From positions 843,277-907,276 of the forward strand of contig JAJEKB010021345.1 of assembly GCA_022393335.1 (NCBI GenBank): a stretch of 64,000 nt of DNA. The letters run 5' to 3'. Positions 7,911 through 61,756 of this stretch are shown piece after piece. Position numbers and translations under genes: made by a program. Below the pieces are notes generated by a model. That model ran no database searches, was not told the origin of the DNA, and saw nothing but the letters and a program-made list of their open reading frames with translations. Position 1 is the first letter of the stretch; each line of letters begins with the position of its first letter. Origin of the DNA: Macrotrachela quadricornifera (Eukaryota; Rotifera; Eurotatoria; Philodinida; Philodinidae).

Positions 7911-7916
7911 GATCTT

Positions 7917-8949: not shown

Positions 8950-8995
8950 TTTCTCTTTCTTTTGTGATCATTTCATCTCTATTGTAAAGACATTT

Positions 8996-9613
8996 ATGTC
9001 ATCATATAAACTTTATTATTTTAATAATCGTGGTTGTGGTGAAGTATGTCGTTTAATACTTGCAGCAGCTGGACAAAAGTATGAAGATATTTGTTATGAA
9101 GATAATGAATGGTTATTACATAAAAGTGAAATGCCATTAGGTGAACTACCTGTACTTCAATTTAATGGTACAAAACTACCACAATCAAAAGCTATCGCTC
9201 GTTTTCTTGCTAAACAATTTCAATTAGCTGGTAGAAATAGTTTTGAACAAGCTAAAGTCGATGTTGTCGTTGATACAATTGAAGATTTAATAACAAAATT
9301 AATACCAGCTTTTGATGAGCAAGATAATAACAAAAGAGAAGAACTTAGTAAAACATTTTTTAATGAAGAACTTCCTACACATTTACAAAATCTTGATATT
9401 TTACTTAAAGAATTTGGTAATGGTGGGTCATTTTTCGTTGAAAATCATTTAACATGGGCAGATTTATATTTTTATAATTTTTTTGAAACTATTCTTGAAA
9501 TTAATCAAAATTGTTTAGATAATTATCCAACATTAAAACAAAATCGAAATCAAGTTGAAAAACATCCGAAAATTCAAGAATATCTTAAAAATCGACCTAA
9601 AACATCTATTTAA
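8996..9613 (+). CDS. Sigma-class glutathione S-transferase (left copy)
   Basis: Intronless, 205 aa, the usual length for sigma GSTs (insect GSTS and vertebrate haematopoietic prostaglandin D synthase type). The N-terminal thioredoxin-like domain (about residues 1-78) has [10 protein letters not shown] with catalytic Tyr8, Trp39, [10 protein letters not shown] (cis-Pro and GSH-backbone loop) and the GSH-binding [11 protein letters not shown]. The all-helical C-terminal domain has [14 protein letters not shown], the conserved N-capping/hydrophobic-staple region. It conjugates glutathione to electrophiles or isomerises prostaglandin-like substrates in the cytosol. Residue 14 is Cys where sigma GSTs, and the sister copy at 59.5 kb, have Arg, a residue implicated in glutathione thiol activation. 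Residue 33 is also Cys versus Arg. Both changes are cgt to tgt. The reading frame is otherwise intact. Confidence 0.93.
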   Translation: MSSYKLYYFNNRGCGEVCRLILAAAGQKYEDICYEDNEWLLHKSEMPLGELPVLQFNGTKLPQSKAIARFLAKQFQLAGRNSFEQAKVDVVVDTIEDLITKLIPAFDEQDNNKREELSKTFFNEELPTHLQNLDILLKEFGNGGSFFVENHLTWADLYFYNFFETILEINQNCLDNYPTLKQNRNQVEKHPKIQEYLKNRPKTSI

Positions 9614-11206
9614 ATAAACATTATTCACGAACTTTTATAAACAAATGTTTTTTGTTTTTCTTTTCACATTTTTCAAATAGATTGAATTAAAATATTCATC
9701 TAATAAGTCTAGTTTCTATCTTAGTATATTTTATGTTAAATTTTAAATATTTGTAAATTTATTTATCCATTACTTTAATCTATTTATTCAATCAATTACG
9801 ACAATATGAAAAAAATCACTTAACATATTCATTCGATATAGATACATTTTTATACTTATAATAATCTCTAAGGACATCTTGATTACCTAATATCTTCTAT
9901 CAATGATAAATGTTCCAAATACCAGATGGTTTTGTTCAATTGAAGAAAACTAAAATTGATGAAAAAAGTTTCGATAGAAACAAAGACAAACTTTTAGACT
10001 CTGACTCTTGCTGTTGTATTAAACATACACATTATAATATAGAAGTTAGATATATGATAGTTCTCAATCAAAGAATAGAACTGATTTCACTACTCAGTTC
10101 TTTTGAAAACAACTAGAACTGTATAAATAGATATGATCTTTTAAATTAAAAAAAGCTGTTAGTACAATATCAGTGAGATTGAAATGTTATATATGAACAA
10201 ACATTTCACAATGTATCTGTCTTTTACAATCTTTGGGAAGGGATTCGAAATTTCAATCTCTATAATTCAATACTCTTTTTAGATCATGTTCTAAAAAACA
10301 GTTCACCGTAATGATTAAAACGAAAAAAAAAGTACAGGTAAATAATTGGACTATTGTTGACAACAATTTGATAATTTTATTTTGTGTATAATATGCCCAA
10401 TGAAAACATGATAAGTAGAAAGTCATATACAAATTCAATTGTTAAAATGATATTATAATACTAATCTTTTCTTTTTTTCTTTCCTTCCTCTTATATTTTT
10501 ATGAATAATGTCCAATAATAACAGAACGATAAAATGTAACCTAGTTGGGATTAAATGACCTTTATTTTTGTATGCTTATTAACTAGTGATTAATAATAGT
10601 GAATCAAAAAAAGAAAGATAAAAATCTATTCTTTAGTATTTGTCAATAATGGATGAATAAACATTATAATCTATTTATTCAAAAAAGAAATAATGTCTAA
10701 AAAAAGTAATGTTAAATATTTGTCAAAAAGAAAGAGAATGACCTAAAAGTGACGTCAAATCCATTTAACTATGTTATTAATTAAATTAATGATTCATTTA
10801 AATAAAAATAATACTTAAATTATCTGATAAAATCTATATTGAAATTTTTTTTAGTATATATTTATATGGACAAAAACTATTCTTCTCAATTACATTTCAT
10901 CAATAATCTCTCTTTACATATATTATCTATTATATAGATATATATGTGATCTATAGATTCTATATACAATTAAATATCAGTATGTTTTAATATCATTTTT
11001 CTAATCCTATAAAATAAAGTAAGTAATATTTGAATGTTCTATTTTTTTGTACATATTCTTTAGAATTGATGAAGTTTTTTCATTGAATAATTTTAATTAA
11101 ATTTCAGATGTGATAAATAGAAGAAAACATTTCTTCATAACTATTTTTCTTGTTTTCATAAAATCAACTCAAAAGATTTTGACTACATTATTACTTAAGA
11201 AATACA
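9614..11206. other. Arm intergenic region between GST and UNC93
   Basis: AT-rich DNA shared with 57,917-59,511 of the right arm. Two short frames are open in both arms: 9910-10116 plus (68 aa; five amino-acid differences from its counterpart at 59,009-59,215) and 10253-10438 minus (61 aa; two differences). Differences in the first are largely amino-acid changing, so coding is doubtful. No promoter can be placed with confidence. Confidence 0.5.
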
Positions 11207-13295
11207 ATGACACAATTAATTTCTGTTGTTGAATCTACTGAAATAAATTCAGTAGTTCCTGAAAAGTAAATTATTTTAATTTTTTAATAATAAACAATAT
11301 AAAAAAAATGTTTTTTTTTTAAAATATATTTAGTAAAATTGAAATAACATCAGAAAATGTTTCAATTGATATGAGTAAAAAACGAATATGGAAAAATGTA
11401 TTTATACTTGGTATTGCATGGACTCTTCTATATACAGCTTATAATGGTAATTTTATTTCAAATTAATTAATTATTCTAAATTTTAAATAAATAAATTCTC
11501 TTTAATATATTTTATTTTAAGCTGTATCAAGTCTTCAATCAAGTTTAAATGTTGATGATAATGTTGGTCTAAATTCGATGTCAATGATATATGGATTTAT
11601 GATCTTATCATCTATTTTATTACCACATCCAATGGTAAATATTGATTTAATTTAAATAAATAAATAAATTTTCGATAAATAAATTTAGATAAATTTATTT
11701 GGTATGAAATGGACAATAGTTATATGTCAATTTGGTTATCTTGCATTTATCGCTTCAAATTTATATCCAAAATCAATTCTTATGTATCCATCATCAATTT
11801 TAGCTGGACTTGTTGCTGCACCATTATGGGCATCAAAAGGTGCTTATTTAACTGAAATTAGTCAAATTTATTCAAAAATTAAACAACAACAAACATCAGA
11901 TAAATATATTATTAGATTTTTTGGAGTATTTTTTGCTATTTATGAAACAAGTATATTATAAATAATATAATATATATTTAAAATAAAAATAATTTTATTT
12001 ATTTTAGGTCATATTTGGGGAAATCTTATTAGTTTTTTTATTTTAAGAAATAATAAATTATTTAATCAAAAAAATAATATCGAATATTTTAATAATACAA
12101 ATCAAAATAATTTAACAAAACAATCTTATCAATGTGGTGCTCAATTTTTAGAAAATGAATATCAGATTAATGATGAAAATATTGTACCAAAAAATATTGT
12201 AATATTTTATTAGTTTTTATATATAAAACATAATTAAATACATTTAGGTCTATACTCTTTGTTATATTTATATTGGTATTGCAATTTTAAGTATTATTAT
12301 TATTATTATTTTACTTGATCAACGTCAAAATAAAAATAAATTAAAAAGTAAAATTTAATATAAAATCAAATCAAATCAAATATTATTTATATATATTTAA
12401 TTTAGATAATTTTGGAATAATGTTTAAAAATACATGTTCTCTTTTTATTTCAACAATTAAACATTTAAAACATATTAATCAAATATTACTTATTCCACTT
12501 ACTATTTGGTTAGGATTACAACAAGGATATCTTAGTGCTCAATTCACGAAGGTTTGTATCAACATTTTTTTTTTATTAAATTATTCTTTTAAAGAATTTT
12601 ACAAAATATTCAACAAATATCATTTCTAAATTTGATTAATTTATTTTGTATAGGGTTTTATAACTTGTTCATCTGGTATTGAATATGTTGGTCTTATTCT
12701 TATTGTTGAAGGTATTTTTGATGCTGGAACAAGTTTTCTAATTGGTTATATTGTTAAATATATTAATCGAGTTTATTGTTTATTATTTGTTACATTTCTT
12801 AATTATGCATTAATATTTACAATGCTCTTTTGGATTCCAACATTTGAACAAATTTGGGTATTATTTATTATTGCAGGTTTATGGGGAATGTCTGATGGTG
12901 TTTGGCAAACACAAAGTAACTTTTAAATTTATTTTTCAAAATAAAAAAATTTTGTTTAATTTAATAGAAAATTTTCTATTACTGAAAAAATAAAATAATC
13001 TTTTTTATTTTTTTCTTTTATAGTTGCTGCAACATATGGAATACTTTTTAATGAACATGAAGCAGCATTTTCGAATTTTCGTTTATGGGAATCATTAGGT
13101 TTTTTCATAGCTTATTTATATGCACCTCGTATTCGTATTCGATATTCACTTATTATTTTAATTTGTGTACTTACTTTAGCTATTGTATTTTATTGTATTA
13201 TTGAAATATTAGAATGTCGACGAAAGAAACTTATCAAATCAGATCAATCATCATCACTTCAACGTATTGAATCTAATATTATAACAGTTTTTTAA
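11207..13295 (+). CDS. UNC93-like major-facilitator membrane protein, 9 exons (left copy)
   Basis: Exons 11207-11265, 11334-11446, 11522-11634, 11689-11950, 12008-12198, 12248-12347, 12406-12551, 12654-12915 and 13024-13295 join in phase to 1,518 nt (505 aa) across short GT-AG introns. The protein is polytopic (about 11-12 membrane helices). UNC93 hallmarks include SSLNVDDNVGLNSMSMIYGF after helix 1, GMKWTIVICQFGYLAF, the NLYPKSILMYPSSILAG region, PLWASKGAYLTE and WGMSDGVWQTQ. The family comprises C. elegans UNC-93 (regulator of a two-pore potassium channel) and vertebrate UNC93A/B (UNC93B traffics Toll-like receptors). Which role applies here is not visible. Exon 6 contains an (att)n run coding six isoleucines. 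The right-arm copy has identical exon lengths. Confidence 0.92.
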
Positions 13296-13417
13296 AATTA
13301 TTTCATTAATGGAAAATTAATTAGGAAATCTTTCCAAATATGATTTTGTTTATCTAAATGATATTGATGAGAAATTTGTTTTCATTTTGTTCATATGTAA
13401 TTATCTTGGCTTTTATT

Positions 13418-13654
13418 TTAATAAATATAATCATCATCTTCAGATTTTATCTTTTTCTTTGTTTTATCATTTATTTTCAATGAAAATCTAATGAGAAAAA
13501 GAAGCATGTACAAACAAAGATTCTTTTTTGATTCAATGAAAAGGAGAGTTTCGTATAAAAACCATTTCCGATAATCACAAAAAAATGGTTTTTTACTAAA
13601 AGTTTCCTGTTGAACACTTTCCATAACTATTAACTGAATATTTTTAACAATCAT
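13418..13654 (-). CDS. 78-aa hypothetical frame conserved in both arms
   Basis: The frame reads MIVKNIQLIVMESVQQETF..., with a Lys/Asp/Glu-rich end. Its product is identical to the frame at 55481-55717 on the opposite arm. It could be a small gene, an exon, or simply a slowly diverged stretch of non-coding DNA. There is no recognised domain, and the middle hydrophobic run (LCLYMLLFLIRF) could be a single membrane segment. I do not recognise it. Confidence 0.25.
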   Translation of the reverse strand: MIVKNIQLIVMESVQQETFSKKPFFCDYRKWFLYETLLFIESKKNLCLYMLLFLIRFSLKINDKTKKKIKSEDDDYIY

Positions 13655-13854
13655 TCAACACTTGAGGATTTGATTAATACATAGTTCGATGCAACTTGAT
13701 GAGCCGAATCCGAAAATATATCTCATATCTCGAAATAATTATTTTTTCCAATATGAAGAACCTGATAAAAAAGCATGAAAAGCCTATAATTCAGAAGAAC
13801 TGATATTCTTAATGAAAAGTACCTATATCTTATTTACAAAATTTCCTAGAGTAT

Positions 13855-13985
13855 TTGAAGATTTCCTTTCTTCATCGAAATGATAAATTAATTCTAATAA
13901 TGCAGTTGCTGAACAACCAGTCCTTGGGTATACACTTGAAAAATACCGTTTACTTTCACAATATCTGCAATCAAACCAATGATAC
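13855..13985 (-). pseudogene. Decayed exon fragment, sister of 55151-55312
   Basis: Minus-strand translation gives YHWFDCRYCESK...TGCSATALLELIYHFDEERK, closely matching the frame in the right arm. Four residues differ in the middle. The AG acceptor present before the right copy (cctag) reads ctctgg here. It looks like the last exon of a gene whose other exons are missing. Protein family not recognised. Confidence 0.35.
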
Positions 13986-14929
13986 CAGAGATAAAAAAAG
14001 AAAATTTTAATTTAATACTCACTATTTAGTTTTTAGTTCTTTTTTTATAGATTAAAAGTAGTCAAAAATTGCATACACATAGCTTCGACATTTTCTTAGA
14101 ATGACTTTGAAAAACTCCAATTGATTCATGACGGCTTTTAACTGTGATTTCTACTGATAAAACAATAGATAGTAATATCTTTTAAAGATAATTGTAAACA
14201 AGATGTGTGTACTTTGCCTTAAAAATATCAACTTTTTAATATAAAGTGAAATAATTATTTCTAAATATATGATATAAATTTGGATTCAACTTATCGACAT
14301 GTATTGATCTATAGATGAAAATTACAAAAACGTTACTCGAATTTTGAATGATCATCACCATACATACATGACAAACTAAAGATAATTAATTTAGATCAAT
14401 TGCAAAGAACTGTGTCATTATCTTTTGCTTTGATCATGTTAAATATCATATTTTATTTTAAAATGATATTACATATGATTACAATTAAAGTGGTACTTAC
14501 ATTCAAAAAATTTTGGTCAATAAAATATAGGGAAGAAAACTATATACCGATATGTAACTTATAAAAATCTGAATCGAACTCGTAAAATAAAAGTCTTTCA
14601 TAAACTTATTTTGAGTATTATTCGCCAAAAGTTCAGTTCATGTTTCCTATTTCTTGATGATTCGTATTTAGATTTGTGAAGAGTCCATCCGCTCTTTCTA
14701 GGTCCTACGATTAGGGAGCAAGCGGGGGTATTTCCATCTACTAATTTTCTTTTTGCGTATTGGCTTTCTGCCTGAGAATTTTATGAACAGGGTGGTTTTA
14801 TCTTTTGGTAAGCACAATGAGCTATAAACACACAAACTTGTTGTATTTTCTGATAGAAAATAGTTTTCTCTGAATACTCACAATGAGAACTGCTTGCTGC
14901 ATTACAGACGGACTATTTTCTCCCGATGT

Positions 14930-15140
14930 GTGTCATTTTCTCCTGAAATGTGCACTATTTTCTCTTTCATTATGTACTATTCCTATTGTATCTAATGAAT
15001 GCGAAAGAAGTTTTAGTCTATTAAAGCGAATTAACGCCACCCTCACGAAATAATCCCTCATCCACAGCGTAAGAAACCGCTGTAAAGTTTAGTGTTTTAA
15101 AATCCGATGTCACTGATGATGATTTAGATGGCATCGTGCA
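14930..15140 (+). pseudogene. hAT transposase C-terminal dimerisation remnant
   Basis: Plus-strand translation near 14980-15080 gives IPIVSNECERSFSLLKRINA followed by TLTK, then a stop and further frame. This matches the (A/V)SN(A)xCERSFSxLxRI signature of the hAT dimerisation domain. Stops within about 15 codons on the 3' side show it is dead. The following ttgtatatatccaggatga block (15148-15167) also occurs at 7658 and may mark the element edge. Confidence 0.6.
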
Positions 15141-15278
15141 ACATTTTTGTATATATCCAGGATGAGCAAAAGCGCATAATATCAAGAATACACAATCACG
15201 AAAATAATGGTGATGATAGTACTAATGATGGATAATAGTTAGAGCCGAATGGTCTTATAAAAGGACAACAAAATATTT

Positions 15279-16124
15279 GATCAGTAAGGTAGACTAAATG
15301 ATCAATATAAAGATCGAATAATCACTACTTAAATTACCAGTAAATAATAATAAAATGATCCGTTTATTATACACAATCAGCAGTGAAAAAACACAATTTA
15401 TGTTGTATAAGTTAATCAATATGAATCGCTTGCATATTGAATAACTTGTACCATTTCTCTCTTTTTTGCATCTATGACAGTTAAATTGGAGTATATTCTC
15501 AATCCTCTCGTGTTTTTCTTCTCTCCTGTCATTCTATGCTCATTCATTTACTTTCTCTTTTTATTCGATAATCAGATCAATGATTTCAGTGTCCAACATT
15601 GGTGATTTTGATGCAAGAACTGGCCTGAAAGTTAGTTTCTAACCGAAAAAATTGTTGGATCTTGAACGAAAGAATACATGACCGTACCAACCCGCCGGCA
15701 ATAGTTACTTCATATTGATTTTCTTGGTAAACGGAAGACACAGACAACCGGATCAAAACATCCTATTCCTGCGCTCAAACTTCAATGATTTTTTTTCGAG
15801 TTTTTTTCGGCTAGAATCTGTGACTTTCTGACCAGTTTTTGCATCAAAATCACCCAAGTTGAACACTGAAATCATGGATCTGATTATCAAATAAAAAGAG
15901 AAAGTAAATGAATGAGCATAGAATGACAAAAGAGAATAAAAACACAAGAGAAAATTAAGAATATACCGTAATCTAACTATCCTAAATGCAAAAAAAAGGA
16001 GAAGTGGTACAAGTTATTTAATATGTAAGCGATTCATATTGAGTAACTTATACAACATAAATTGTTTTTTTTCACTGCTGATTGTATATAATAAATTGAT
16101 CATTTAATCTATTTTACTAATCAC
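15279..16124. mobile_element. Foldback/hairpin element with about 380-bp arms
   Basis: The segment 15279-15670 is inverted at about 15765-16124 with a short unpaired centre. Both arms share ordered blocks such as taaatgatcaat, tgttgtataagtta and cattctatgctcattcatttac. It is almost entirely palindromic, so it would form a long hairpin. Both arms could encode a GDFDA(K/R)TG peptide, which may be an accident. No target duplication is clear. Confidence 0.65.
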
Positions 16125-19332: not shown

Positions 19333-22211
19333 ATGATATTCATCCAACTTATTGTTCTACATTTTATTTTCGCTATTGTTGTCAATGGATCTCATTTTCT
19401 TGGTGGTACTATCACATGGCGTCCAGTAAATGAATCAGCTACCGGAACACCTGTCGCTATTCTTGTTACTCAAACTTATTCATGGACTTATTCATTGATG
19501 CCATGTACTGCTAATATGATTGCCACTAATCAGTTTGTTCCCTCTTATTCAGGTTCACTTTTATCTTTAAGACTTACATGTATAACTAATTGTGGTGCTG
19601 GTTCCACTGGTTATTCTGCTATCGATGTGATTCCTCGTTGCACCGATTTCTCTGCTCCTGTTGGAACTACTGTCGGACAACGTACAGACATTGTTTATTT
19701 AGCAGTAGGTGACGATTTTTCAGCAGCATTTCAATCTAGTGCGTGGCGTCCTCTGGCTAGTGGTTCAAGTGCTAGTTGGTCTATTTCAACACGTATCAAT
19801 ACAAAACGAAGAACTGATAATGGTCTATATAATAATGCACCTGTAGCAACTATGATGTCTCCAATCAATATTCCTGTCAATATACCAACTGTTATTCATG
19901 TTCCTATTGCTGATGCTGATGGAGATACTCTTCGATGTCGATGGTCAACATCATCTAATGGAGTTAATGAATGTGGTGGAGTATGTCCACCGAGTTCACT
20001 TCCACCAAATACAGTCATTTATCCTAATTGTACAATTATCATCACTGGTCAACAAATTAGCAATTGGTTTGGTGTTACACTCATGGTTATATTTATTTTA
20101 TTTTTGTTTTTTTTCAATATTACTAAATATTTACTTGTTTTCATATAGGTAGAAGATTTTATTAATTCAACAAGTACAACTCCATTAAGTTCAGTACCTG
20201 TTCAATTTCTTGTTCAAGTTGTTTCTTCACCATCTTGTACTACTCCACCTGAAATAATTGGAGTACTTCCTGAACAATCATGTACTTCTATGATTGTTGG
20301 CCAAACATTTACATCACAAATAATTGCAATAAATAAATGTGGTCCTAGTGTAACTATTGATGATATTGCTACACTTTCATTTTCTGGTATGGTTAAAAGT
20401 AATATAACAAAATTAAATTCAACAATGTACTATAAAACAATAACATGGACACCAACAACTGATCAAGTTGGTTATCAAGTGATGTGTGCAATGGCTTTTG
20501 ATAGGTATACCAATATAATGAAAAATTTCTTTGAAAAATAAGATAAATTATTGTATTTTAGTCAAGATGCTCAATCAGCACAATATTGTTTTAAATTTTA
20601 TGTATCAAAATCTGGTGTATGTTCTTGTCCTGGTGATCCATGTATTACAACAACATCAACAACGTCAACTACATCAACTACAACAACAACAACAACATCA
20701 ACGACAACAACATCCACAACATCAACAACAACATCATCATCAACATCTACAACAACGACAGCAACAACCTCAACATCAACAACATCCACAACAACAACGA
20801 CAACAACATCTTCAACAACATCAACGACATCAACATCAACATCGACAACATCAACAACATCTACGTAAGTCACTAATTCATCTTCTAAATCTCATAGATA
20901 AAAGAATTATTTTTGTTTCATATTTATTTAAGATCATCAACAAGTACTACGTAAGTTTTTTGTTCATAATTTTGAGAATAAAAAATTGATATATGTATAC
21001 TTTTGCATAGATCAACATCGACATCAACAACTACAGCAACAACTACAACTCAACAACGTTTGTTTATATTATTACTGATTGTAAAATAATAAGATTGAAT
21101 GTTTTTCTTTTTTTTTTGAATTCTAGCTGGTCCAATTAATTGGCCATTGACTGGAAGTATTATTGGTTTATTTTGTCTTGCTGCTTTGACTTTATGTTGT
21201 TGTCTTTGTTGGCGTTATCTTTGGTTTGTTTATTTTTTGTCAAATAATGAACTGTTGTTCTTTATTACTGTTTGTCTTTTTAGTCTTCTTGGCGCTCGTA
21301 AATATGCATGTGAACAAGCTGATGTTAAATTGTATCATATCGAACCATGTATAAATTCTGATTGTCCCTGGATCAAGGAAGAATGTTTGTTAAATAATTT
21401 TTTTAAATATATAAAGAATTTTCTTAAAACTATTTTAGATAAAAAAAATATTATCCCGAATAACTTAGAAATGTGTACAATAGAAAATGCTGATCTAAAC
21501 AAATCATTTGCTGGTGTATCTGTGTCTATAGTAAAACGAGAAAATACAAAACATGATAAAGAAAGACTATGTAATAAAGTTCCTAATTATAAACTAAATG
21601 AAGAAGAAAATGATATTTATCTATCCAAATTTCAAAACAATGAAAATACAAAATTATCGCCTATAAAATCATCAGAAATGGACAGCATTTCTATTGTTCT
21701 TGATACACCTAAATTAACGCAAGAAATCCGTGCAAGACATAAAAGTAAGAAGATTAAAAATGATATTGAAATAACTCGATTGCATTCAAAACCAACTATG
21801 ATGACATATAGTTCTTCGGTTAATGATCCTCCTCCATCAATTGTTGGTAATACGATTTATTTAGATAAGAATGATGAAATTAGTCCAATAAGAGATGGAT
21901 TAAATACCAGTAAAATGAATCATTTAGGATCAAATCATCAATCGACGTCATTGAATCAAATTAAACTACCTCCAATTCCATTAAAATCAATGAAAGAAAA
22001 TCATGTCACTAATGATAATGAGGCATCACCATCATCAGTTCGTATTGAACGTATAAAAACAGAAAAGAAAAAAGTAAAATCAAATAAAATAACCTTTATC
22101 GATCCTATTCCTGAAGAAACTCCAAATGTTAAAACCGAAAATCGTTATAATCTAACACACATTGAACATGTACCTCGAGAAACTACTGCCAAATCACAAA
22201 CAAATAAATAA
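19333..22211 (+). CDS. Type I membrane protein with cysteine-rich ectodomain and mucin-like Thr stalk (7 exons)
   Basis: Exons 19333-20085, 20149-20504, 20562-20864, 20933-20950, 21011-21057, 21127-21223 and 21284-22211 join in phase (2,502 nt, 833 aa). Order: signal peptide (FIQLIVLHFIFAIVVNG), a large ectodomain beginning SHFLGGTITWRPVN with paired cysteines, and a second ectodomain part (VEDFINST...SVPVQFLVQV). A Thr/Ser stalk of about 110 residues follows, encoded by aca/tca/acg triplets across exons 3-5, then one membrane helix (SIIGLFCLAALTLCCCLCW) and a cytosolic tail of about 300 residues rich in Lys/Asn/Ser. Such architecture suits a surface receptor or adhesion protein with an O-glycosylated stalk. 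I recognise the ectodomain style from invertebrate repeat-stalk proteins but not a named family. Exon 4 is only 18 nt. The 60-bp last intron is in frame without a stop, so its retention would still give protein. Confidence 0.75.
20642..20864 (+). repeat. Threonine-codon triplet tract
   Basis: A near-pure run of aca/acg/tca/tct triplets codes the Thr/Ser stalk. All six frames are open over it, which generates spurious poly-Asn, poly-Gln/His and poly-Val/Asp frames. The 18-nt and 47-nt exons downstream carry the same codon pattern. Confidence 0.85.
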
Positions 22212-25010
22212 ACTATGTATCAATTTTAATAAATATAGTAAATTAGATTAAGTTATTTTTCAAAATAATTGTTTCAATAATGGAGAAAAATTCTTTTTTA
22301 AATTTATAAATACAATATGTAAATAATATACGCACAAATCTATAAATTGTGTCTAACAATGTCAATGAAAGTTTAATGTGACTTTGCTTGTTTGATTAAA
22401 CGATGAGACATTCAATACTAATACTTATAAAAAGATACTTATCAATAACAATAGTAAAATCGTAAACATGAATCCTTACGAATTATTTTTTTTATTAATT
22501 TTGCAAGTATGATTAGTTTCTTGTTTCGAGATGTATAAGGTTTCATAACAACCGATAAAAATTTTTAATTTTTATTACTTTCAGATATATACATAACATT
22601 CAATACGATATTTTTTTTCCATTAGATTCTATTTGAAGTCTAAGAAAAATTCATATAAACTTCATATAAGTACTTTGTTTTTCATCGATTTTTACAAATA
22701 AACAGATATATGTATGTAGAACGAGCTAAAACCATGTTTTTATGAAACAAATAAAAAAACTCATCTGTAAAAGAAAGAGAAAGATTATCTTTAGTATTAT
22801 TTCTGAAAATTTCTAAAATGAATTAAACGTTGTAATTATTTTTTTTATTTTCAAAATACATACAAGACTTGCTCAAGTGACGAATAAGTGCGCAAAAAAT
22901 CCGTTTTTGATATGTCATATTTTTGAACATAAAAACAGCTTATTTGAAATTGAAATTTCATGTGCAAAACTGAACAGTTAATCTCCTCCATTCATTAACT
23001 GATCAAATTCATCATGTTTTTGCTTAATATAAAAGAATTCAAGAAAAGGGACAAAAAGATACATGACGATGTTATTTGTAAATTGTGATGACTATGTAAA
23101 ATTTCATTTATGTCATAGGGAAATATAGGCACACCAAATGGCTCGCAATTAGTCATTGTCATATGAAGATGGTATAGATATTTTCGTTTTTGGGAAATTT
23201 CAATCGAAATTATATCATATAAAAGATGTTAAATATAAATTCTCACATAATATAAACAAATTCATGGTATAAAATGTCTCATTAGTGACTTACAAACGAA
23301 AGAGAAGGTAGAAAGCATTTTTTTGAGCTAATTTTAGATAATGTAAGCTCTTTTTTTCCTTTCGATTTTATTTTTATTGTGCACAAAACGAATATATGAA
23401 TTTTCTCTGCTAGAAATAATATGTCACATAGGCAAACAAATAATATATGAAACACGATGAAGTTACCTACATTGTAAATGATGAAATTTCTTAATTACAA
23501 GATATTTTTTAGATCAGATATTTGTCGTATTACTTTTGTTTATCAATGAATATAAAACAAACATATGATTTAACACTAATAAGTTAGAATATTTCGACAT
23601 TTTGTTGAATTAAAAGTAGAATAGCATCCAACTTTATATGAATTAGTTACTGATTACTCAGTACGAATTAAAAGAGTTATATCAAACATTTGTTGACATA
23701 ATTCAGCATGAGGGTGATTTAAGAAGTTCAAGAAAATCCAAATGACTCTTCATACACTTCTTCAAAACATATTTCTTTAATTAATCTGTATTTATTATGA
23801 GTCGAGATTCACATGTAGAAAATAATAATTATGAATAATCTCAATAGATTGGTTATAGAAATAGTTTTGATAAATTAATTAAAGTTACAAAAATCCATCA
23901 TATTACCTTGGTCCAATCGTTCCCTGATTCATTCCTAATTTTATTTGAATGCGCCTATTATAGTGGCATCATGTAGAGGATAATTACTAATCATTACACC
24001 GCCATATCTCTGTCTTTCTCTTATGCTCGTTGATCTTTTATATTCCATCGATATACATCTCCTATATACGTTTGGTTTCATTATTTCCTTCACTACGTGC
24101 TCTTATCTCTTGTCCATTAAGAACTATACGACTGATCTTCATCGTGTATATAATATTCGTTTTTTCTCTAATAATTGATTAACAATCATGGTTAAATTTA
24201 TATATAGCAAGTGTTCGAAGCCTGTGTTGAATTTCGAAAGGATATCAATACATAAAAAAAGAAGGAAAAACAAGATAATAAACGAATATTGATGTCGAGA
24301 TTAGCGTTGTTCGAGTTTTCTTTCAATATGTTCAAAAGATTTAACAATTAGTCATCCTACATCTGCTATAAGTTATGGCAAAGCTGCTAAAACAAAGCTG
24401 GTCACGAAATAGAATAATCAATATAGCAGTAGCTTCAATATAATCTTGTCTCTCTTAACAACATAAGCTCTTGACTGATAGACAATTAGGAGCAAGTTAA
24501 GAGTGACTAAAAACCGAGAAAGGAACGAAACAGAAATAATTCACAATGAGATCAATAGGGAATGAATTGGTTATAAACTTCCTGATCCATGTAGTAGATA
24601 ATCAATTCCATGTATTAATCATATTTGTTAATTATTCTAATCAAATTATATTCATTAAATATTATGGTCAAGCATGAAATATTCTTAATCGATTTCTTGA
24701 GAATATTTAAAAAATTTTTCAAAGTGGTCATATTTATATCTGGATTAATTTTAATTTTATTTAAAATAAAAGTACTTAAAATATATTATTGACAAAAAAA
24801 TTTTCTCATTTTCAAGAAGTACAGTATCGAATAGAATACAAAAAAATTTTAAGAAAAATTTCGTATTCATTCAATTAAAATATTGCGTTTAGAATAGTTG
24901 TTGTCATATATTCAATAGACTTGATGATTAATATTACATAAAGAAAAACAAAATTCATATTATTTTTTATAATTGAATATGAAGATTTAATTTCTTATGA
25001 TAAATTTGCA
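22212..25010. other. 2.8 kb intergenic, no gene seen
   Basis: AT-rich throughout. No protein fragment, RNA gene or clear repeat is recognisable. It separates two divergently ended transcription units: the plus-strand mucin-like gene and the minus-strand gene that ends at 25,011. Confidence 0.45.
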
Positions 25011-28000
25011 CTAAATAGATGAGGATAATTTTTCCCATAAAGTTCGAAGTAAAACTTGTGCACGTTGAAAATCATTGATAGGATCAATTTTATCTGATAT
25101 ATGAGGATTATCAAGAGATACAATAATAAGATGTTTATGCCATGTTTTATCTTGATCTTTTAAGAAAAATTCTTCAATTTTTTGACGAAATATATTACCT
25201 TGTTGTAATGGATCAAAACTACCAAAATGAAAATGAGAAAGCATATTTTCATATTGATTTTGTAAACCATGTAAAGCTGCAGGAATTTCCATAGGAAAAT
25301 AAAAACTCTAATTAAATAAAAATACATTAAATATTAATTCAAATAAAATAAATTAATTATTAACTTTATGTTCAATTAAATTTGTTAATTTATATACAGT
25401 TAATGGACTATATGATCTTTGAAAAATACCACCGACAGTTACTATTAAATTGTGATTAGTGAAGTTTTTATCTCTAGAAATAATAAATTTATTATCTTAT
25501 TTTTCTAAATATAAATTACGTTGATTTCCAAATTGATAATTTTAATCCAATTTCTTTTTGTTCATTTTCATTTAATGATAATCCACAAGATATAAGTCTA
25601 TTTGTATTTTTAATTGTCCATGGAATAATAAAAACCCATTTTGGAATAAATATTGATGGATTATTATATAAATTAATTAAATTTTCTTTTTGAAGTTGTC
25701 TATCAATTAATTCAACTCTTAATTGATGATCTTCAAATAAATAATTAAAAAAAAAAATATTTTTTTTTTATTATTTTTATTAATATTACCTAATAGAGGT
25801 ATAAGTAATTTTGCATAATTAAAATAGAATGCAGCTGCACAACCTGCACCAATACTTGTACATTGCTTTAAAAGAATATTTTTCGATCTTATATATATAT
25901 AATTAAATCAAAATTCTTACTATTGATGATTTTTCTAAAAAATAATTTGTATCTTGAAAATTATCTGTATAATTTTTTAATAAAATATTCATATCTATAA
26001 TTAATATAAAAATAAAAAAAAAACGAAATAGTTTTTAAATAAGAAAATTTTTCTTACTATTTAAATAATAAATTATTTCTTGAATATCATTATCATTTAA
26101 ATATATAGATCGTAAATTAAAATCAAAAGTAAGATAAGGTACAGAACGAATAAATCGACAAGGAAAATATCGAATAGCATCATTAATTAAAATAAAAATA
26201 TCTCTTAAAACACCATACTAAAATTAATAATTAAATAAATATATTTCAAAAGAAAAAAATATATATATATATATTACTTTATTTATTTTATATTGTATAG
26301 CATTAATTATTAAACGATTTATTTTATCATGTCTTTTTCCAGTACAAATAAAAATAATTTGTTTTTGTGTTTCAATAAAATCAAGATTATTTTCAACATA
26401 TTCAATTATATAACCTTTTATTTCAAGTTTTTCTCTAATATTTCTAGAATAGAAATTTTTTTTTCAAAGGAAAATTTTATTTATTTATTTTACTTAATAA
26501 ATATCATAATTAATTGATTTTCTTTTGCTTTATCAGTATAAAATAATAGAATATGATGAGTTTGATCATATGAAAGAATTTTTGTTTCAATCTAAATATT
26601 AAAAACAATTGAAAATTTTTATTTTATTTTATAAAAATATTTTTTTTTATTACAGAGAATAAAGGTATATTATTATCTAATATTTGATAGGATTGATCAA
26701 TATTTTCTTTAATTTGATACCATAATGGTTTAAAATCAGCATCTATAATTAATAAGAAATAAATAATTATTTAATAAATAATAAAATAAAGATTTTATAC
26801 AATCAAAATTTTTATCATCATTATATTCAATTAATTTAATTGATTCAAATAAGTTATTAACTTGAATAAGTCTGTTAAGCATATTACAAAAACGTAAATA
26901 TTCATCATGTTTTTGAGTTTTTGATATTTGACCAGATTTTTCTAATTGATCAAGTATTGATAATATATATGGATATTCTGCACTAAATAAATACTATAAC
27001 TAAATATATATCAAATTCTTTTTTTTATTAGAATTTCTTTTTATTACTCGAATAATTTCGTTATTATTGTTTATTTCATCAACATAGTAATATGTTCTAC
27101 GAAGATAACGATTATAATGATGCATTGGACGTGATCGAAGTACCTCACTTGTATATTAAAATAATAAAAAGATTATTTTTTAAATAAAACTTACCCATTT
27201 GCATAAGCTAATTTTATTCTATCATGAATATTTGGATCAATAATTGTTCCTTTAAGTATAATCTCATCAGATTCACTTGGTCCATCGATATCAGATGGAC
27301 CGAAGTTACATGAAGAAGACATTATTATATAATAAACAGGTACAACGAATAATTTATCAATTTTTCTACCGTCTTTAGTAAAATTATTATTTGGGTCACT
27401 TATATATAGATCATAACAATCTTTTGTCGTTTTTTTCATTGTACTTACACCTAAAAGAAGGTAAACATATTCAAAATAAATATGATTATATTATGGATGT
27501 GCGTATATTCAATAGTTGTGTTTTGTATTGCAGTTTTCATTCACTTTATTCACTGTATTTAAAAAACCATATATAATCTCAAAGTGCAGCGTGAAAAGCT
27601 CTTAGATTACACAGGATAGCTTTTATTATAGTTAATTCGTGAATTTTCAGCGCGGGACTCTTGATGTAGATAAGAGCGTGATTGCAGGTGCCGGTTGGAT
27701 ATTCACCTGAACTCACACTCATATCTACGTTTATTATCTCGCCCACGCTAAGACTTTTGCGATGCGATTTTTTATGATGGATGCTCGCATGCGGAACATT
27801 TTGTGCTAAAAATTCTAGTTCATTTTTATAGTAAAACTGTAAGAAAAGTAGTCTTATGAAAATTTTAGAATTTTCCACGCTACATCTTTTGCTTATACAT
27901 TTAATTTATTAAGTGAATGAAAACTGAAATGCAAAACGTGGCCATTCAGTATAACGCACTCGTTATTTCATACATACCAGGATGTCCCTCATTACTACAT

Positions 28001-32392: not shown

Positions 32393-32401
32393 ATATCATT
32401 G

Positions 32402-33285: not shown

Positions 33286-33288
33286 ATA

Positions 33289-53864: not shown

Positions 53865-54508
53865 AAAACAATAAAATATTATTTAAATTAGATTTTTATT
53901 ATAAATGCGCTTTTTTTTTTAATTAAAAAGAAAATGATACTCACTGGAACTTCAACATCAATTAATTTAGTTATTTAAAATAAATTTATCTGTCATTAGT
54001 TATTAAGAAAAAATACTCAAAGATTCCATTTCAGAAACAAAAAACGTACCTAAATCACGCATACACATTCTTACGAATGACAGTTTGCGATAAAAAATGG
54101 AGAGATGTAAAAATTTAATTGTCTCTATCCTCGTGTTTACATAGTTCTCTTTAAATACGTGATCGCATAAGACGATAAATCAAATTCCCTCACAATTTCC
54201 AACGAAGATATATATTTTGATGGAGAATTGGACGATGAATCTTTTTCATGCGGAATTCAAACTATTTATAAAATGATTCGATGCAGATTACTGCACCATA
54301 TTTTTACTGCATCTTAACGGTTGTATATTAATAGTAAGTACGTTAAAAAGTTGGTGCATCAGGCTGTACATAGTCTCATTTGAAAAAGCAGATGATTCTT
54401 CACAAATTTAAATATGAATCATTGAGAAATAGGAAATATGAATTGAAGTTATGGTTAATAAAAAGTATTTTCTATTGAGCTTTCATATATATCGTGAAGA
54501 TTAATATT
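53865..54508. other. Spacer end before the right arm
   Basis: No gene. Somewhat less AT-rich than its surroundings. Unlike the equivalent flank at 14.62-14.9 kb, so the arm homology ends sharply at about 54,509. Confidence 0.4.
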
Positions 54509-55150
54509 AGCGAATGATACTCAAAATAAGTTTATGAAAGACTTTTATTCTACTAGTTCGATTCAGATTTTTATAAGTTACATATCGGTATATAGTTTTC
54601 TTCTCTTTATTTTATTGACCAAAATTTTACGAATGAAAGTACCACTTTAATTGTAATCATATGTAATATCATTTTAAAATCAATTATGCTATTTAATATG
54701 ATCAAAGTAAAAGATAATGACACAGTTCTTTGCAATTGATCTAAATTAATTATCTTTAGTTTGTCATGTATGTATGGTGACGATCATTCAAAATTCGAGC
54801 AGCATTTTTGAAATTTTCATCTATAGATCAATACATGTCGATAAGTTGAATTCAAATGTATATCATATATTTAGAAATAATTATTTCACTTTATAATAAA
54901 AAGTTGATATTTTTAAGGAAAAGTATACACATCTTGTTTACAATTATCTTTAAAAGATATTACTATCTATTGTTTTATCAGTAGAAATCACAGTTAAAAG
55001 TTGTCATGAATCCATTGGAGTTTTTCAAAGTCATTCTAAAACAATCTCGAAGCTATCTGTATGCAATTTTTGACTACTTTTAATCTATAAAAATCGAACT
55101 GAAAACTAAATAGTGAGTATTAAATTAAAATTTTCTTTTTTCATCCCTAG

Positions 55151-55312
55151 TATCATTGGTTTGATTGCAGATATTGTGAAAGTAAATGGTATTTTTCAAA
55201 TGTACACTCAAGGACTGGTTGTTCAGCAACTGCATTATTAGAATTAATTTATCATTTCGATGAAGAAAGGAAATCTTCAAATACTCTAGGAAATTTTGTA
55301 AATAAGATATAG
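55151..55312 (+). pseudogene. Last-exon-like fragment, 53 codons
   Basis: After an AG (55149-55150), the frame reads YHWFDCRYCESKWYFSNVHS, then RTGCSATALLELIYHFDEER and KSSNTLGNFVNKI, followed by a stop. A GTGAGT occurs 40 bp upstream, but the DNA before it has stops in all frames, so the remaining gene is missing. Family not recognised; cysteine-rich start. Confidence 0.35.
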
Positions 55313-55480
55313 GTGCTTTTCATTAAGAATATCAGTTCTTCTGAATTATAGGCTTTTCATGTTTTTTTATCAGGTTCTTCATATTGGAAAAAATAATTAT
55401 TTCGAGATATGAGATATATTTTCGGATTCGGCTCATCAAGTTGCATCGAACTATGTATTAATCAAATCCTCAAGTGTTGA

Positions 55481-55717
55481 ATGATTGTTAAAAATATTCA
55501 GTTAATAGTTATGGAAAGTGTTCAACAGGAAACTTTTAGTAAAAAACCATTTTTTTGTGATTATCGGAAATGGTTTTTATACGAAACTCTCCTTTTCATT
55601 GAATCAAAAAAGAATCTTTGTTTGTACATGCTTCTTTTTCTCATTAGATTTTCATTGAAAATAAATGATAAAACAAAGAAAAAGATAAAATCTGAAGATG
55701 ATGATTATATTTATTAA
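55481..55717 (+). CDS. 78-aa hypothetical frame, identical to 13418-13654
   Basis: The product is identical to the left-arm frame. Lies between the 3' end of the UNC93 copy and the exon-like fragment. Coding status uncertain. Confidence 0.25.
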   Translation: MIVKNIQLIVMESVQQETFSKKPFFCDYRKWFLYETLLFIESKKNLCLYMLLFLIRFSLKINDKTKKKIKSEDDDYIY

Positions 55718-55839
55718 AATAAAAGCCAAGATAATTACATATGAACAAAATGAAAACAAATTTCTCATTAATATCATTTAGATAAACAAAATCATATTTG
55801 GAAAGATTTTCTAATTAATTTTCCATTAATGAAATAATT

Positions 55840-57916
55840 TTAAAAAACTGTTATAATATTAGATTCAATACGTTGAAGTGATGATGATTGATCTGATTTG
55901 ATAAGTTTCTTTCGTCGACGTTCCAATATTTCAATAATACAATAGAATACAATAGCTAAAGTAAGTACACAAATTAAAATAATAAGTGAATATCGAATAC
56001 GAATACGAGGTGCATATAAATAAGCTATGAAAAAACCTAATGATTCCCATAAACGAAAATTCGAAAATGCTGCTTCATGTTCATTAAAAAGTATTCCATA
56101 TGTTGCAGCAACTATAAAAGAAAAAAATAAAAAAGAATATTTTGTTTTTTCAGTAATAGAAAATTTTCTATTAAGTTAAATTAAACTTTTTTATTTTGAA
56201 AAATAAATTTAAAAGTTACTTTGTGTTTGCCAAACACCATCAGACATTCCCCATAAACCTGCAATAATAAATAATACCCAAATTTGTTCAAATGTTGGAA
56301 TCCAAAAGAGCATTGTAAATATTAATGCATAATTAAGAAATGTAACAAATAATAAACAATAAACTCGATTAATATATTTAACAATATAACCAATTAGAAA
56401 ACTTGTTCCAGCATCAAAAATACCTTCAACAATAAGAATAAGACCAACATATTCAATACCAGATGAACAAGTTATAAAACCCTATACAAAATAAATTAAT
56501 CAAATTTAGAAATGATATTTGTTGAATATTTTGTAAAATTCTTTAAAAGAATAATTTAATAAAAAAAAATGTTGATACAAACCTTCGTGAATTGAGCACT
56601 AAGATATCCTTGTTGTAATCCTAACCAAATAGTAAGTGGAATAAGTAATATTTGATTAATATGTTTTAAATGTTTAATTGTTGAAATAAAAAGAGAACAT
56701 GTATTTTTAAACATTATTCCAAAATTATCTAAATTAAATATATATAAATAATATTTTTATTTTATTTGATTTTATATTAAATTTTACTTTTTAATTTATT
56801 TTTATTTTGACGTTGATCAAGTAAAATAATAATAATAATAATACTTAAAATTGCAATACCAATATAAATATAACAAAGAGTATAGACCTAAACAAATAAA
56901 ATTATGTTTTATAAATAAAAACTAATAAAATTTTACAATATTTTTTGGTACAATATTTTCATCATTAATCTGATATTCATTTTCTAAAAATTGAGCACCA
57001 CATTGATAAGATTGTTTTGTTAAATTATTTTGATTTGTATTATTAAAATATTCGATATTATTTTTTTGATTAAATAATTTATTATTTCTTAAAATAAAAA
57101 AACTAATAAGATTTCCCCAAATATGACCTAAATAAATAAAATTATTTTTATTTTAAATATATATTATATTATTCATAATATACTTGTTTCATATATAGCA
57201 AAAAATATTCCAAAAAATCTAATAATATATTTATCTGATGTTTGTTGTTGTTTAATTTTTGAATAAATTTGACTAATTTCAGTTAAATAAGCACCTTTTG
57301 ATGCCCATAATGGTGCAGCAACAAGTCCAGCTAAAATTGATGATGGATACATAAGAATTGATTTTGGATATAAATTTGAAGCAATAAATGCAAGATAACC
57401 AAATTGACATATAACTATTGTCCATTTCATACCAAATAAATTTATCTAAATTTATTTATCGAAAATTTATTTATTTATTTATTTATTTAAATTAAATCAA
57501 AATTTACCATTGGATGTGGTAATAAAATAGATGATAAGATCATAAATCCATATATCATTGACATCGAATTTAGACCAACATTATCATCAACATTTAAACT
57601 TGATTGAAGACTTGATACAGCTTAAAATAAAATATATTATAAAGAATTTATTTATTTAAATTTTAGAATAATTAATTAATTTGAAATAAAACTACCATTG
57701 TAAGCTGTATATAGAAGAGTCCATGCAATACCAAGTATAAATACATTTTTCCATATTCGTTTTTTACTCATATCAATTGAAACATTTTCTGCTGTTATTT
57801 CCATTTTACTAAATATATTTTTATGTTGTTTATTATTGAAAAATTAAACTAATTTACTTTTCAGGAACTACTGAATCTATTTCAGTAGATTCAACAACAG
57901 AAATTAATTGTGTCAT
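55840..57916 (-). CDS. UNC93-like membrane protein, 9 exons (right copy)
   Basis: Exons 57858-57916, 57696-57808, 57508-57620, 57184-57445, 56937-57127, 56788-56887, 56583-56728, 56220-56481 and 55840-56111 match the left copy length for length and join in phase (505 aa). All GT-AG sites are kept. Observed protein changes are few and mostly conservative (Ile/Met at the start of exon 2, Val/Ile at the end of exon 4, Cys/Arg in the C-terminal tail ILE(C/R)RRKK). Both copies therefore appear functional. For the role see the left copy. Confidence 0.92.
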
Positions 57917-59511
57917 TGTATTTCTTAAGTAATAATGTAGTCAAAATCTTTTGAGTTGGTTTTATGAAAACAAGAAAAATAGTTATGAAGAAATGTTTTC
58001 GTCTATTTATCACATCTGAAATTTAATTAAAATTATTCAATGAAAAAATTTCATCAATTCTAAAGAGTATGTGCAAAAAAATAGAACATTCAAATATTAC
58101 TTACTTTATTTTATAGGATTAGAAAAATGATATAAAAAAATACTGATATTTAATTGTATATAGAATCTATAGATCACATATATATCTATATAATAGACAA
58201 TATATGTGAAGAGAGATTATTGATGAAGTGTAATTGAGGAGAATAGTTTTTGTCCATATAAATATATATACTAGAAAAAATTTCAATATAGATTTTATCA
58301 GATAATTTAAGTATTATTTTTATTTAAATGAATCATTAGTTTAATTAATAACATAGTTAAATGGATTTGACGTCACTTTTAGGTCATTCTCTTTCTTTTT
58401 GACAAATATTTAACATTACTTTTTTTAGACATTATTTCTTTTTTGAATAAATAGATTATAATGTTTATTCATCCATTATTGACAAATACTAAAGAATAGA
58501 TTTTTATCTTTCTTTTTTTGATTCACTATTATTAATCACTAGTTAATAAGCATACAAAAATAAAGGTCATTTAATCCCAACTAGGTTATATTTTATCGTT
58601 CTGTTATTATTGTACATTATTCATAAAAATATAAGAGGAAGGAAAGAAAAAAGAAAAGATTAGTATTATAATATCATTTTAACAATTGAATTTGTATATG
58701 ACTTTCTACTTATCATGTTTTCATTGGGCATATCATACACAAAATAAAATTATCAAATTGTTGTCAACAATAGTCCAATTATTTACCTGTACTTTTTTTT
58801 TCGTTTTAATCATTACGATGAACTGTTTTTTAGAACATGATCTAAAAAGAGTATTGAATTATAGAGATTGAAATTTCGAATCCCTTCCCAAAGATTGTAA
58901 AAGACAGATACATTGTGAAATGTTTGTTCATATTTAACATTTCAATCTCACTGATATTGTACTAACAGCTTTTTTTAAATTTAAAAGATCATATCTATTT
59001 GTACAGTTCTAGTTGTTTTCAGAAGAACTGAGTAGTGAAATCAGTTCCATTCTTTGATTGAGAACTATCATATATCTAACTTCTATATTATAAAGTGTAT
59101 GTTTAATACAATAGCAAGAGTCAGAGTCTAAAAGTTTGTCTTTGTTTCTATCGAAAGTTTTTTCATCAATTTTAGTTTTTTTCAATTGAACAAAACCATC
59201 TGGTATTTGGAACATTCATCATTAATAGAAAATCTTAGATAGTCAAGATGTTCTTAGAGATTATTATAAGTAAAAATAATACATCTATATCGAATGAATA
59301 TGTTAAGTGATTTTTTTCATATTGTCTTAATTCGTTCAATAAATAGATTAAAGTATCGATAAATAAATTTACAAATATTTAAAATTTAACATAAAATCTA
59401 CTAAGATAGAAACTAGACTTATTAGATGAATGTTTTAATTCAATATATTTGAAAAATGTGAAAAGAAAAACAAAAAACATTTGTTTATAAAAGTTCGTGA
59501 ATAATGTTTAT
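57917..59511. other. Arm intergenic region (right)
   Basis: Collinear with 9614-11206. Contains the counterparts of the two small frames (58686-58871 plus and 59009-59215 minus). No independent feature. Confidence 0.5.
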
Positions 59512-60129
59512 TTAAATAGATGTTTTAGGTCGATTTTTAAGATACTCTTGAATTTTCGGATGTTTTTCAACTTGATTTCGATTTTGTTTTAATGTTGGAT
59601 AATTATCTAAACAATTTTGATTAATTCCAAGAATACTTTCAAAAAAATTATAAAAATATAAATCTGCCCATGTTAAATGATTTTCAACGAAAAATGACCC
59701 ACCATTACCAAATTCTTTAAGTAAAATATCAAGATTTTGTAAATGTTTAGAAAGTTCTTCATTAAAAAATGTTTTACTAAGTTCTTCTCTTTTGTTATTA
59801 TCTTGTTCATCAAAAAGTGGTATTAATTTTGTAATTAAATCTTCAATTGTATCAACGACAACATCGACTTTAGCTTGTTCAAAACTATTTCTACCAGCTA
59901 ATTGAAATTGTTTAGCAAGAAAACGAGCAATAGCTTTTGATTGTGGTAATTTTGTACCATTAAATTGAAGTACAGGTAATTCACCTAATGGCATTTCACT
60001 TTTATGTAATAACCATTCATTATCTTCATAACGAATATCTTCATATTTTTGTCCAGCTGCTGCAAATATTAAACGACATACTTCACCACGACCACGATTA
60101 TTAAAATAATAAAGTTTATATGTTGACAT
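59512..60129 (-). CDS. Sigma-class glutathione S-transferase (right copy)
   Basis: 205 aa, intronless. Nine residues differ from the left copy: T3, R14, F22, R33, L105, S127, K128, S165 and G168. This copy keeps the family-standard NNRGRGE with Arg14, together with Tyr8, Trp39 and the [11 protein letters not shown] glutathione-binding segment, so it has the complete set of expected active-site residues. Same neighbours as the left copy. Cytosolic detoxification or prostanoid-type isomerase role by family. Confidence 0.94.
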
Positions 60130-61756
60130 AAATGTCTTTACAATAGAGATAAAATGATCATAAAAAAAAGAGAAAATGTTATATCTAGGAATGTGATATA
60201 AAGAGAAAGCGTGGCATATGTATTATTATTTATTTGTTTTTCTTTTACCTCGTTATCATTAGATGAATAAATACCTCGAAGAAGGAGAAAAAGAAAAGAA
60301 AAATTACTTTTAGTATACATTTGTCTTTCATAAAAAATCTACTCTTTTGCATATTAATAATAGATATGTATTTTATCAATTAGATGAGAAATAACTGATT
60401 GATTATCTATGAATCTATTGAATTAAATCTATAAATTAATCTCTTATCAATTATAGGATAAACTAAATTCATAAATACACGGATAAAAGTTTCTTCATGA
60501 AAATGCTTAATATTGTTACAAGCAAGGACATACAGATGGTTTTTTAGAAACTCCTTGCGTGTGCATGCAATACAATATTAGAATGACCGAAAAATATAGT
60601 TTATAAGATGAAATTCTTTACCATCCAATCATTTATTGACTTTAGAAATGTAATGAAAACTAATTGATATAATGATCATTTAATAACTTTGAAACATACA
60701 TATACATGTATGCTAATAATTATCAAGAATTTGAAAAAGTAAGCAATTTTTTCAGCTAATATCAGGTAATTATATCAGAGCAATTCTATTTCGATGAAAA
60801 ATAAATAATTTAAGGTTTATAAAAGACGAAGTTCTTCTACGAAACTACATCTATACTACAAAATAACAAAAAATTTTGCATGTCAATTCAGAATCGCTTC
60901 ACTGTTAGTTTCCGTGAAGAGAAATTTTTTCATCAACATGCACAATTTCGAGACGATCTGGTTATCTTACAGATAGTCACGGGTGATACTTGTTTAGCTG
61001 AAGAGAGTCATATCTTACATGAATGTGAGAGATTAATGCATCTATGTATCAGTAAACATCAGAGTCATGCATGACCTCTTATGTTTTACGAAAAAACTTA
61101 AAAATCTGTACTTGTATGCAAAAACTGCAATATTTTAAATATTTTGAAAGTAAATGCATAGTTTTTAAAAGACTTATTGTAACTATACGTGTCAGCTAAA
61201 CTTGGGCGTGTGACTGTGTAAGGATGTCTAGGTAAAAAGAGTATGTTTCGGTCCTTCTCTGGACGTCCAATTTGCAAAGATGTTTTAGAAAGAAGGCATT
61301 TGCTCAAAAATACTTTTTTTTCTATGAGACAACTGATACATCTTCCATAGACAATATAATTCTTTATAGTACATATTCAAAAATTCTGCTTAAGACTTTC
61401 AATTTGAAAGGATTTTCGGCTTTTCTTTTGTTATGAATCCATCGTTACAATTCCTAAAGTATATATCACTTATTTCTCCATTTTATATTATATGGAATCG
61501 TATCGATGTCAATTCGTTTCCTCAGCTACTGAAAATGATCTATGCTTATAAAAAGCAACTTATCCATTATATTTGTGATGTGAGGATGATTATTCAATAC
61601 GTTATCCAAGTATTCGTATTCATATTCGAGAGAAAGGAGAAAATTATTCTTGAACATCATGGTGAATTTACGTACGTATATCATTAATACTATTTAATAG
61701 TAAAAAAAATAATTTTTATTTGATTATTTTGTTCTTGAAGCTGATTTAATAAGAAC
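60130..61756. other. Intergenic, doubtful frames
   Basis: Open frames at 60,880-61,074 (plus, 64 aa, with HQHAQFRDD and HILHECERLMHLCI) and 61,433-61,687 (plus, 84 aa) have no flanking splice or start evidence and no recognised family. They may be decayed transposon protein. No other feature. Confidence 0.35.

Follow-up and report, generated by a model that had tools for sequence, protein, structure and literature searches.

Introduction

Segmental duplications are stretches of at least 1 kb that share more than 90% identity, are present in low copy and are not themselves transposons. In bdelloid rotifers, palindromes on a single scaffold had served as evidence against chromosome pairing, which a later chromosome-level assembly of Adineta vaga is reported to have questioned. 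Published counts are 23 palindromes for the 2013 assembly of Adineta vaga and none for Adineta ricciae (PMC5916493), one for another A. vaga assembly (PMC7749112) and none for three other bdelloids (PMC7953838). Homologue divergence is put at between at most 0.033% in Rotaria macrura and a median of 4.55% in A. ricciae (PMC5916493). Collinear gene blocks are the basis of the analyses in PMC5916493 and in PMC7953838, each of which flags scaffolding errors as a risk. Here we describe an inverted pair in a 64-kb stretch of the genome of the bdelloid Macrotrachela quadricornifera, positions 843277-907276 of contig C4658, referred to as the window. We consider it very probable that the pair is a true inverted segmental duplication, with one arm (arm 2) likely the original and the other (arm 1) likely a reverse-oriented copy, 40 kb from it and flanked by two transposable elements.

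The assembly searched comprises 450,031,034 bases in 5695 contigs. The G+C content of the window is 25.8%, lower than the range of 29-35.5% that Table 1 of PMC7943196 gives for whole bdelloid genomes.

Extent and gene content of the inverted pair

Self-BLAST revealed one long inverted pair in the window, 8949-14628 against 60176-54507 on the minus strand, with a bit score of 9452. The arms measure about 5.7 kb and are separated by a spacer of about 40 kb. Both carry an intact GST gene and an intact UNC93-like gene, two genes per arm.

8949-14628, plus strand: arm 1, probably the added copy, with a diverged tail to 14698 (self-BLAST, global alignment, flank comparison)
54507-60176, minus strand: arm 2, likely the original locus, with a diverged tail to 54382 (alignment; contig C945 spans the inner edge, contig C1118 the outer edge)
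8996-9613, plus strand: GST of arm 1, HPGDS/sigma type, single exon, 205 residues, Cys at 14 and 33 (PF02798, PF14497)
59512-60129, minus strand: GST of arm 2, HPGDS/sigma type, single exon, 205 residues, Arg at 14 and 33 (Pfam agrees)
11207-13295, plus strand: UNC93-like gene of arm 1, nine exons, 505 residues (PF05978)
55840-57916, minus strand: UNC93-like gene of arm 2, nine exons, 505 residues, GT/AG sites preserved

Global alignment of the arms gave 5657 paired columns with 142 mismatches (89 transitions), an identity of 97.5%, and 10 indels, the longest of 19 bases. Past the inner arm ends, after an indel, a diverged tail of 81 bp follows (14618-14698 against 54461-54382, 83% match). A first-pass annotation of the window had placed the arms within about 5 bases of these limits, and the reverse collinearity that it described across exons, introns and intergenic DNA is borne out over the 5657 columns. 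Its count of nine differences over the 205 GST residues was reproduced. It had also described a single-base difference over 258 nt of UNC93 exon 4, which we did not find: exon 4 (11689-11950, 262 nt) contains three mismatches. Exon 8, likewise 262 nt, has none.

The arms are at least 1 kb long and at least 90% identical, occur in low copy and are not themselves a transposon, as in a segmental duplication. Two full-length genome matches to the arm were listed among the best 40 of 92 candidates, arm 2 being the only one apart from arm 1 itself.

The arms are paralogues

Six pairings of the arm flanks were searched for matches at E <= 1e-3. Between the two outer flanks there were none. The inner flanks shared only the 83% tail, a 29-bp piece of the arm end and two short matches of low identity whose positions are unrelated, and inner right against outer right flank gave one match of 45 bp.

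A second version of the locus was found in two other contigs. C945:205230-242342 tracks window positions 21299-55669 in the same order and orientation, with some interruptions, and over the eight main segments it differs from the window at 925 of 32037 columns (2.9%). It spans the inner edge of arm 2 (window 54113-55669, 92.4% identity) and reads N from 242343 onward. The outer edge of arm 2 is spanned by C1118, a contig of 10,118 bases, in which positions 8600-10118 match window 61596-60083 at 94.3%; C1118 stops within the GST gene. For arm 1 the identities over the shared part were 92.0% with C945 (1166 columns) and 93.8% with C1118 (97 columns). Both sequences differ from both arms and match them at 92-94%. 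About 56 bp are common to arm 2 and C945 and missing from arm 1. We interpret C945 as the second haplotype at the window locus, and C945 and C1118 may well belong to one and the same other haplotype. Farther off, C945:44-5000 matches C4658:446324-451284 at 94%, and the first 5 kb of C945 match contig C1628 likewise.

Because their flanks are unrelated and a third distinct sequence is present, the arms are not two alleles but paralogues. With three distinct sequences coexisting, arm 1 is not a missing allele, and the pair is not a haplotypic (false) duplication, in which alleles are assembled as paralogues. Both edges of arm 2 recur in the second version and no such recurrence was found for arm 1, suggesting that arm 2 is likely the original and arm 1 the extra copy. 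The first-pass annotation had regarded the arms as allelic-type or recent copies with a bearing on chromosome pairing. That they are collinear copies stands; that they form an allelic-type pair informative on pairing is not supported, in view of C945. Its point that it matters whether the inverted pair is real is upheld.

One further contig, C4125 (11.3 kb), places window 20729-21366 before pieces of window 1-7225, in an order unlike that of the window; it is either a rearranged haplotype or a paralogue. Considered as an empty site or allele of the arm 1 locus it gave no answer, as it matches 1-7225 in pieces and in a different order and ends at 11309.

Uneven divergence between the arms

Differences between the arms were not spread evenly. 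They amounted to 1.5% in 10130-13911 and to 3.8% and 5.7% on either side; in noncoding DNA the corresponding values were 2.05%, against 5.0% and 5.7%. Under random placement such unevenness had p = 0.002 for the whole arm and p = 0.001 for noncoding DNA. C945 served as a control for local mutation rate. At variable sites in 13466-13911, C945 alone differed at 32, arm 1 alone at 2 and arm 2 alone at none, whereas in 13912-14628 the counts were 35, 18 and 22. The contrast between 32 C945-alone and 2 arm-arm sites in the first interval and 35 and 40 in the second was significant (Fisher test, p = 1.2e-6), and local mutation rate is therefore not the explanation. Gene conversion between the arms is the likely cause of the patchiness, and later conversion from arm to arm would keep patches nearly identical.

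Two results limit this reading. When differences within 10 bp of each other were merged, the noncoding test dropped to p = 0.058. In addition, arm 2 differs from C945 at 89 of 1159 columns within the arm, against 925 of 32037 in the eight main segments (p = 2e-15), and the divergence is about 7% just beyond the arm too (21 of 287 at 54113-54399, 18 tail bases included). Since the level is similarly high outside the arm, the direction of conversion cannot be read from it, and an overwriting of arm 2 by arm 1, which the raised divergence between arm 2 and C945 had brought up, was dropped as a reading.

The declustered test also lends itself to a different account, in which the duplication is true but took place without any gene conversion, and selection and mutation hot spots produced the patchiness. 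This account challenges one step of the proposed history and is compatible with the duplication itself. It is favored by the divergence of the UNC93-like gene, which is 0.66% in exons and 4.4% in introns. It sits poorly with the strong contrast to local allelic divergence and with the inner tail, where among 69 sites compared arm 1 alone differed at 9, C945 alone at 2 and all three at 1. We regard it as possible but doubtful, and conversion between the arms as the likelier course.

Divergence of the gene copies

The nine amino acid differences between the GST copies correspond to a nonsynonymous divergence (dN) of 0.020 and a synonymous divergence (dS) of 0.061. For the UNC93-like copies there were five amino acid differences, dN was 0.004 and dS 0.016, and GT/AG was retained at every intron. 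The closest UNC93 proteins among the matches listed were from Adineta, at 51-54% identity. Among 120 listed of 272 matches to the arm 1 GST, the proteins of Rotaria sp. Silwood1, Rotaria sp. Silwood2 and Rotaria sordida were 83%, 81% and 80% identical, and the best A. vaga protein 65%. No relative of GST or UNC93 at 90% identity or more was among the matches listed, and the values fit a bdelloid other than A. vaga.

Compared with the 120 listed GST relatives, arm 1 deviates from the commonest residue at five of the nine differing positions (3, 14, 22, 33 and 128) and arm 2 at two (127 and 165); positions 105 and 168 are undecided. Arg occupies position 33 in all 120 relatives and position 14 in 105 of them; arm 1 has Cys at both. 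In an alignment to the HPGDS chain 1pd2 an Arg faces Cys14 of arm 1, and the GST part of C1118 codes for Arg14. The 15 relatives that also lack Arg14, none of them with Cys there, indicate that its loss is not unheard of. Arm 1 GST, having lost Arg14 and Arg33, may be drifting or acquiring a different role. The locus thus offers a pair of GST copies whose original is likely known and of which the copy lacks a residue reported essential in hPGDS. Elsewhere in the assembly, C834 and C2099 hold arrays of related GST genes, with at least six matches per contig that share 70-77% identity with the GST of the arm.

Boundaries of arm 1

The ends of arm 1 adjoin two dispersed repeats.

8492-8948, plus strand: dispersed element, 457 bp, inverted ends GGCCTTGTCTAC; adjoins arm 1 at the right, no target-site duplication seen
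14699-15263, plus strand: dispersed repeat at the inner end of arm 1, adjoining it within a base or two

The last base of the 457-bp element directly precedes arm 1, and three other listed copies, 91-96% identical, have the same limits within 3 bases. A copy in C5050 is bordered by TAT on both sides; the ends of the remaining two copies are less clear. No TAT-like duplication was found beside the window's element on the arm side. The inner repeat begins at about 14699-14700: of the 46 non-self matches listed for 14640-15290, 23 start within 14695-14706 and none any earlier than 14695. Four of the 46 were aligned. The longest listed matches are 75-76% identical, and no target-site duplication of this repeat was found in the one stretch searched. 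From these coincidences, both ends of arm 1 are the ends of unrelated dispersed repeats. Capture of host genes inside a single transposon was considered and rejected, the neighbours being two different repeats with no target-site duplication found at the 457-bp element (arm side) or, in the stretch searched, at the inner repeat. No target duplication was seen where the 457-bp element meets arm 1, and we propose that a break at transposon ends may have been repaired with nearby arm 2 as template, which would have left the inverted arm 1 copy.

A fuller scenario is offered tentatively and has less than even odds in our estimation. A break in a gap between transposons would have been patched with the neighbouring gene pair in inverted orientation. 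The arms would now work as an intrachromosomal conversion pair that keeps UNC93 uniform. The GST of the copy would escape this and lose Arg14, the residue that activates glutathione.

Several observations weigh against the proposed history of arm 1. The coincidence with repeat ends also favors the leading rival explanation, in which the join is chimeric and was made at the repeats, and the assembly is the sole source for the junctions of arm 1. An allelic counterpart of its immediate flanks was not among the matches listed, and C945 reads N there. No high-identity allele was listed either for 14640-15290 (38 of 38 candidates scored) or for 7230-8490 (best 40 of 134 candidates). In C945 the first 5 kb lie 205 kb from the part that matches the window, and the corresponding distance in C4658 is 418 kb; therefore either the N runs of C945 are missized or C945 and C4658 differ structurally. 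Lastly, the asymmetry of five against two unusual GST residues is not significant (p = 0.45).

In the rival version arm 1 is a real third copy with its true place elsewhere in the genome, and was misassembled into C4658 by way of the dispersed repeats that border it. Repeat ends of this kind are a usual site of chimeric joins, and no second sequence supporting the two junctions of arm 1 was found among the matches listed. However, neither edge of arm 1 contains N, and an error would be needed at both ends. The copies should be distinguishable, since the three others listed for the 457-bp element diverge by 4-9% and identity is 75-76% in the longest matches to the inner repeat. We consider misplacement improbable, and retain a true inverted duplication in C4658.

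The sequence outside arm 1 holds further repeats. A remnant of a DDE_Tnp_1_7 transposase, which we take to be of piggyBac type, lies at 5021-6543; PF13843 is matched by its open piece 5936-6418, and several further occurrences of the stretch are present in the genome. It is followed by a short dispersed repeat at 6538-6920 with at least 20 copies at 89-93% identity. At 7903-8335 there is a foldback element of GGGACTATGGGACTT-like repeats with many genome matches of the same limits, flanked by the 8-bp direct repeat GAAATTCA at 7895 and 8336.

The spacer and the scaffold join

The only N run of the window, not mentioned in the first-pass annotation, lies between the arms, and the correctness of the join there was assessed from the element that holds it, from C945 and from the neighbouring genes.

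32481-32490, no strand: assembly gap of 10 N in the spacer, the window's only N run (C945 is continuous here)
32402-33285, no strand: gap-holding element with a 14-mer-like array at each end, between two copies of the 9-bp direct repeat ATATCATTG (32393-32401 and 33286-33294)
29809-31956, minus strand: ankyrin-Mab-21 gene, left of the gap (open reading frame, domain and homology searches)
35908-40166, minus strand: Vps54 gene, right of the gap (open reading frame, homology and Pfam searches)
40499-43219, minus strand: cyclin gene in the spacer (PF16899, PF00134)

The gap falls inside one of the element's two terminal arrays, a tandem 14-mer array that has a similar counterpart at the opposite end. 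One copy of ATATCATTG borders the element on each side of the gap. Shared words of at least 9 occurred in 1.3% of 19961 random 30x30 pairs, and the direct repeat by itself is modest support for the join. The same element is present in C945 without N, its left 9-mer copy having one base changed, and C945:210845-219503 aligned across window 24579-33210, through the position of the gap. Because C945 passes this position without N, the scaffold join is right, and this continuity is decisive. The interior of the element (32600-33316) consists of minisatellite-like repeats in which both strands retain long open frames.

Gene order points the same way. For the Mab-21 and Vps54 matches the longest contigs had identical sizes in four sets (Adineta steineri 420820, A. 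ricciae 211793, ena 101032 and lgn 6513), which suggests that the two genes are neighbours in other bdelloids if equal size is taken to mark one and the same contig; in the listed Rotaria sets the sizes are not equal. The Vps54 piece is 90% identical to Rotaria. The protein of 29809-31956 combines ankyrin repeats with a Mab-21 nucleotidyltransferase domain; for the piece searched, listed Rotaria relatives were at most 64% identical and A. steineri 71%.

Two explanations that make the arms alleles can be judged on these results. Two alleles of one locus might have been misjoined head to head by scaffolding across the gap: the arm divergence of 2.5% is near the allelic level of 2.9% in the flanks, and the gap does lie between the arms, but the flanks differ, the sequence that spans the edges of arm 2 elsewhere differs from both arms, and C945 confirms the join, leaving this scarcely credible. 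Equally hard to credit is a real allelic palindrome of the kind in the first A. vaga assembly, impossible in a meiotic chromosome set, which the reverse collinear arms, on a single scaffold and as alike as alleles, would fit, but which has against it only two genes per arm and a homologous scaffold that both matches C4658:446324-451284 and tracks the window.

Comparison with known systems

A limited literature search on bdelloid palindromes and duplications, by titles and the starts of abstracts, found no report of this locus. We read the inverted pair as an ordinary inverted segmental duplication and not as an allelic palindrome of the A. vaga type; it says nothing against chromosome pairing. 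The window shows how a palindrome uninformative on pairing can arise: its arms are as similar as alleles, the scaffold is correctly joined and a homologous scaffold exists alongside. The tests that separated the readings (unrelated flanks, a third sequence over the edges of one arm, a homologue through the gap) are applicable to other reported palindromes, and the pair may be useful as a worked control for palindrome claims.

The A. vaga palindromes of 2013, as described in PMC5916493, resemble the window pair in that their collinear copies stand in reverse orientation on a single scaffold and diverge by a few percent. Their arms are homologous (allelic) gene blocks, whereas those of the window are paralogues in a two-gene block. 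The arms here are reverse collinear on one scaffold, as in A. vaga, but are not two allelic copies, as C945 and C1118 differ from both. With two genes per arm they also fall short of the block of at least five homologous genes used in the MCScanX setting of PMC5916493. Y-chromosome palindromes with arm-to-arm gene conversion, as presented in PMC7953838, share inverted arms and near-identical patches with the window pair. Unlike them, the window has arms of 5.7 kb at 97.5% identity, a 40-kb spacer and no known link to a sex chromosome, and conversion is proposed from the pattern of differences only. The closest match is the ordinary interspersed inverted segmental duplication: the window pair exceeds 1 kb and 90% identity, carries genes with introns and has unrelated flanks. 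Nothing essential sets it apart from that class, and its particular feature is that both ends of the copy lie at the ends of dispersed repeats.

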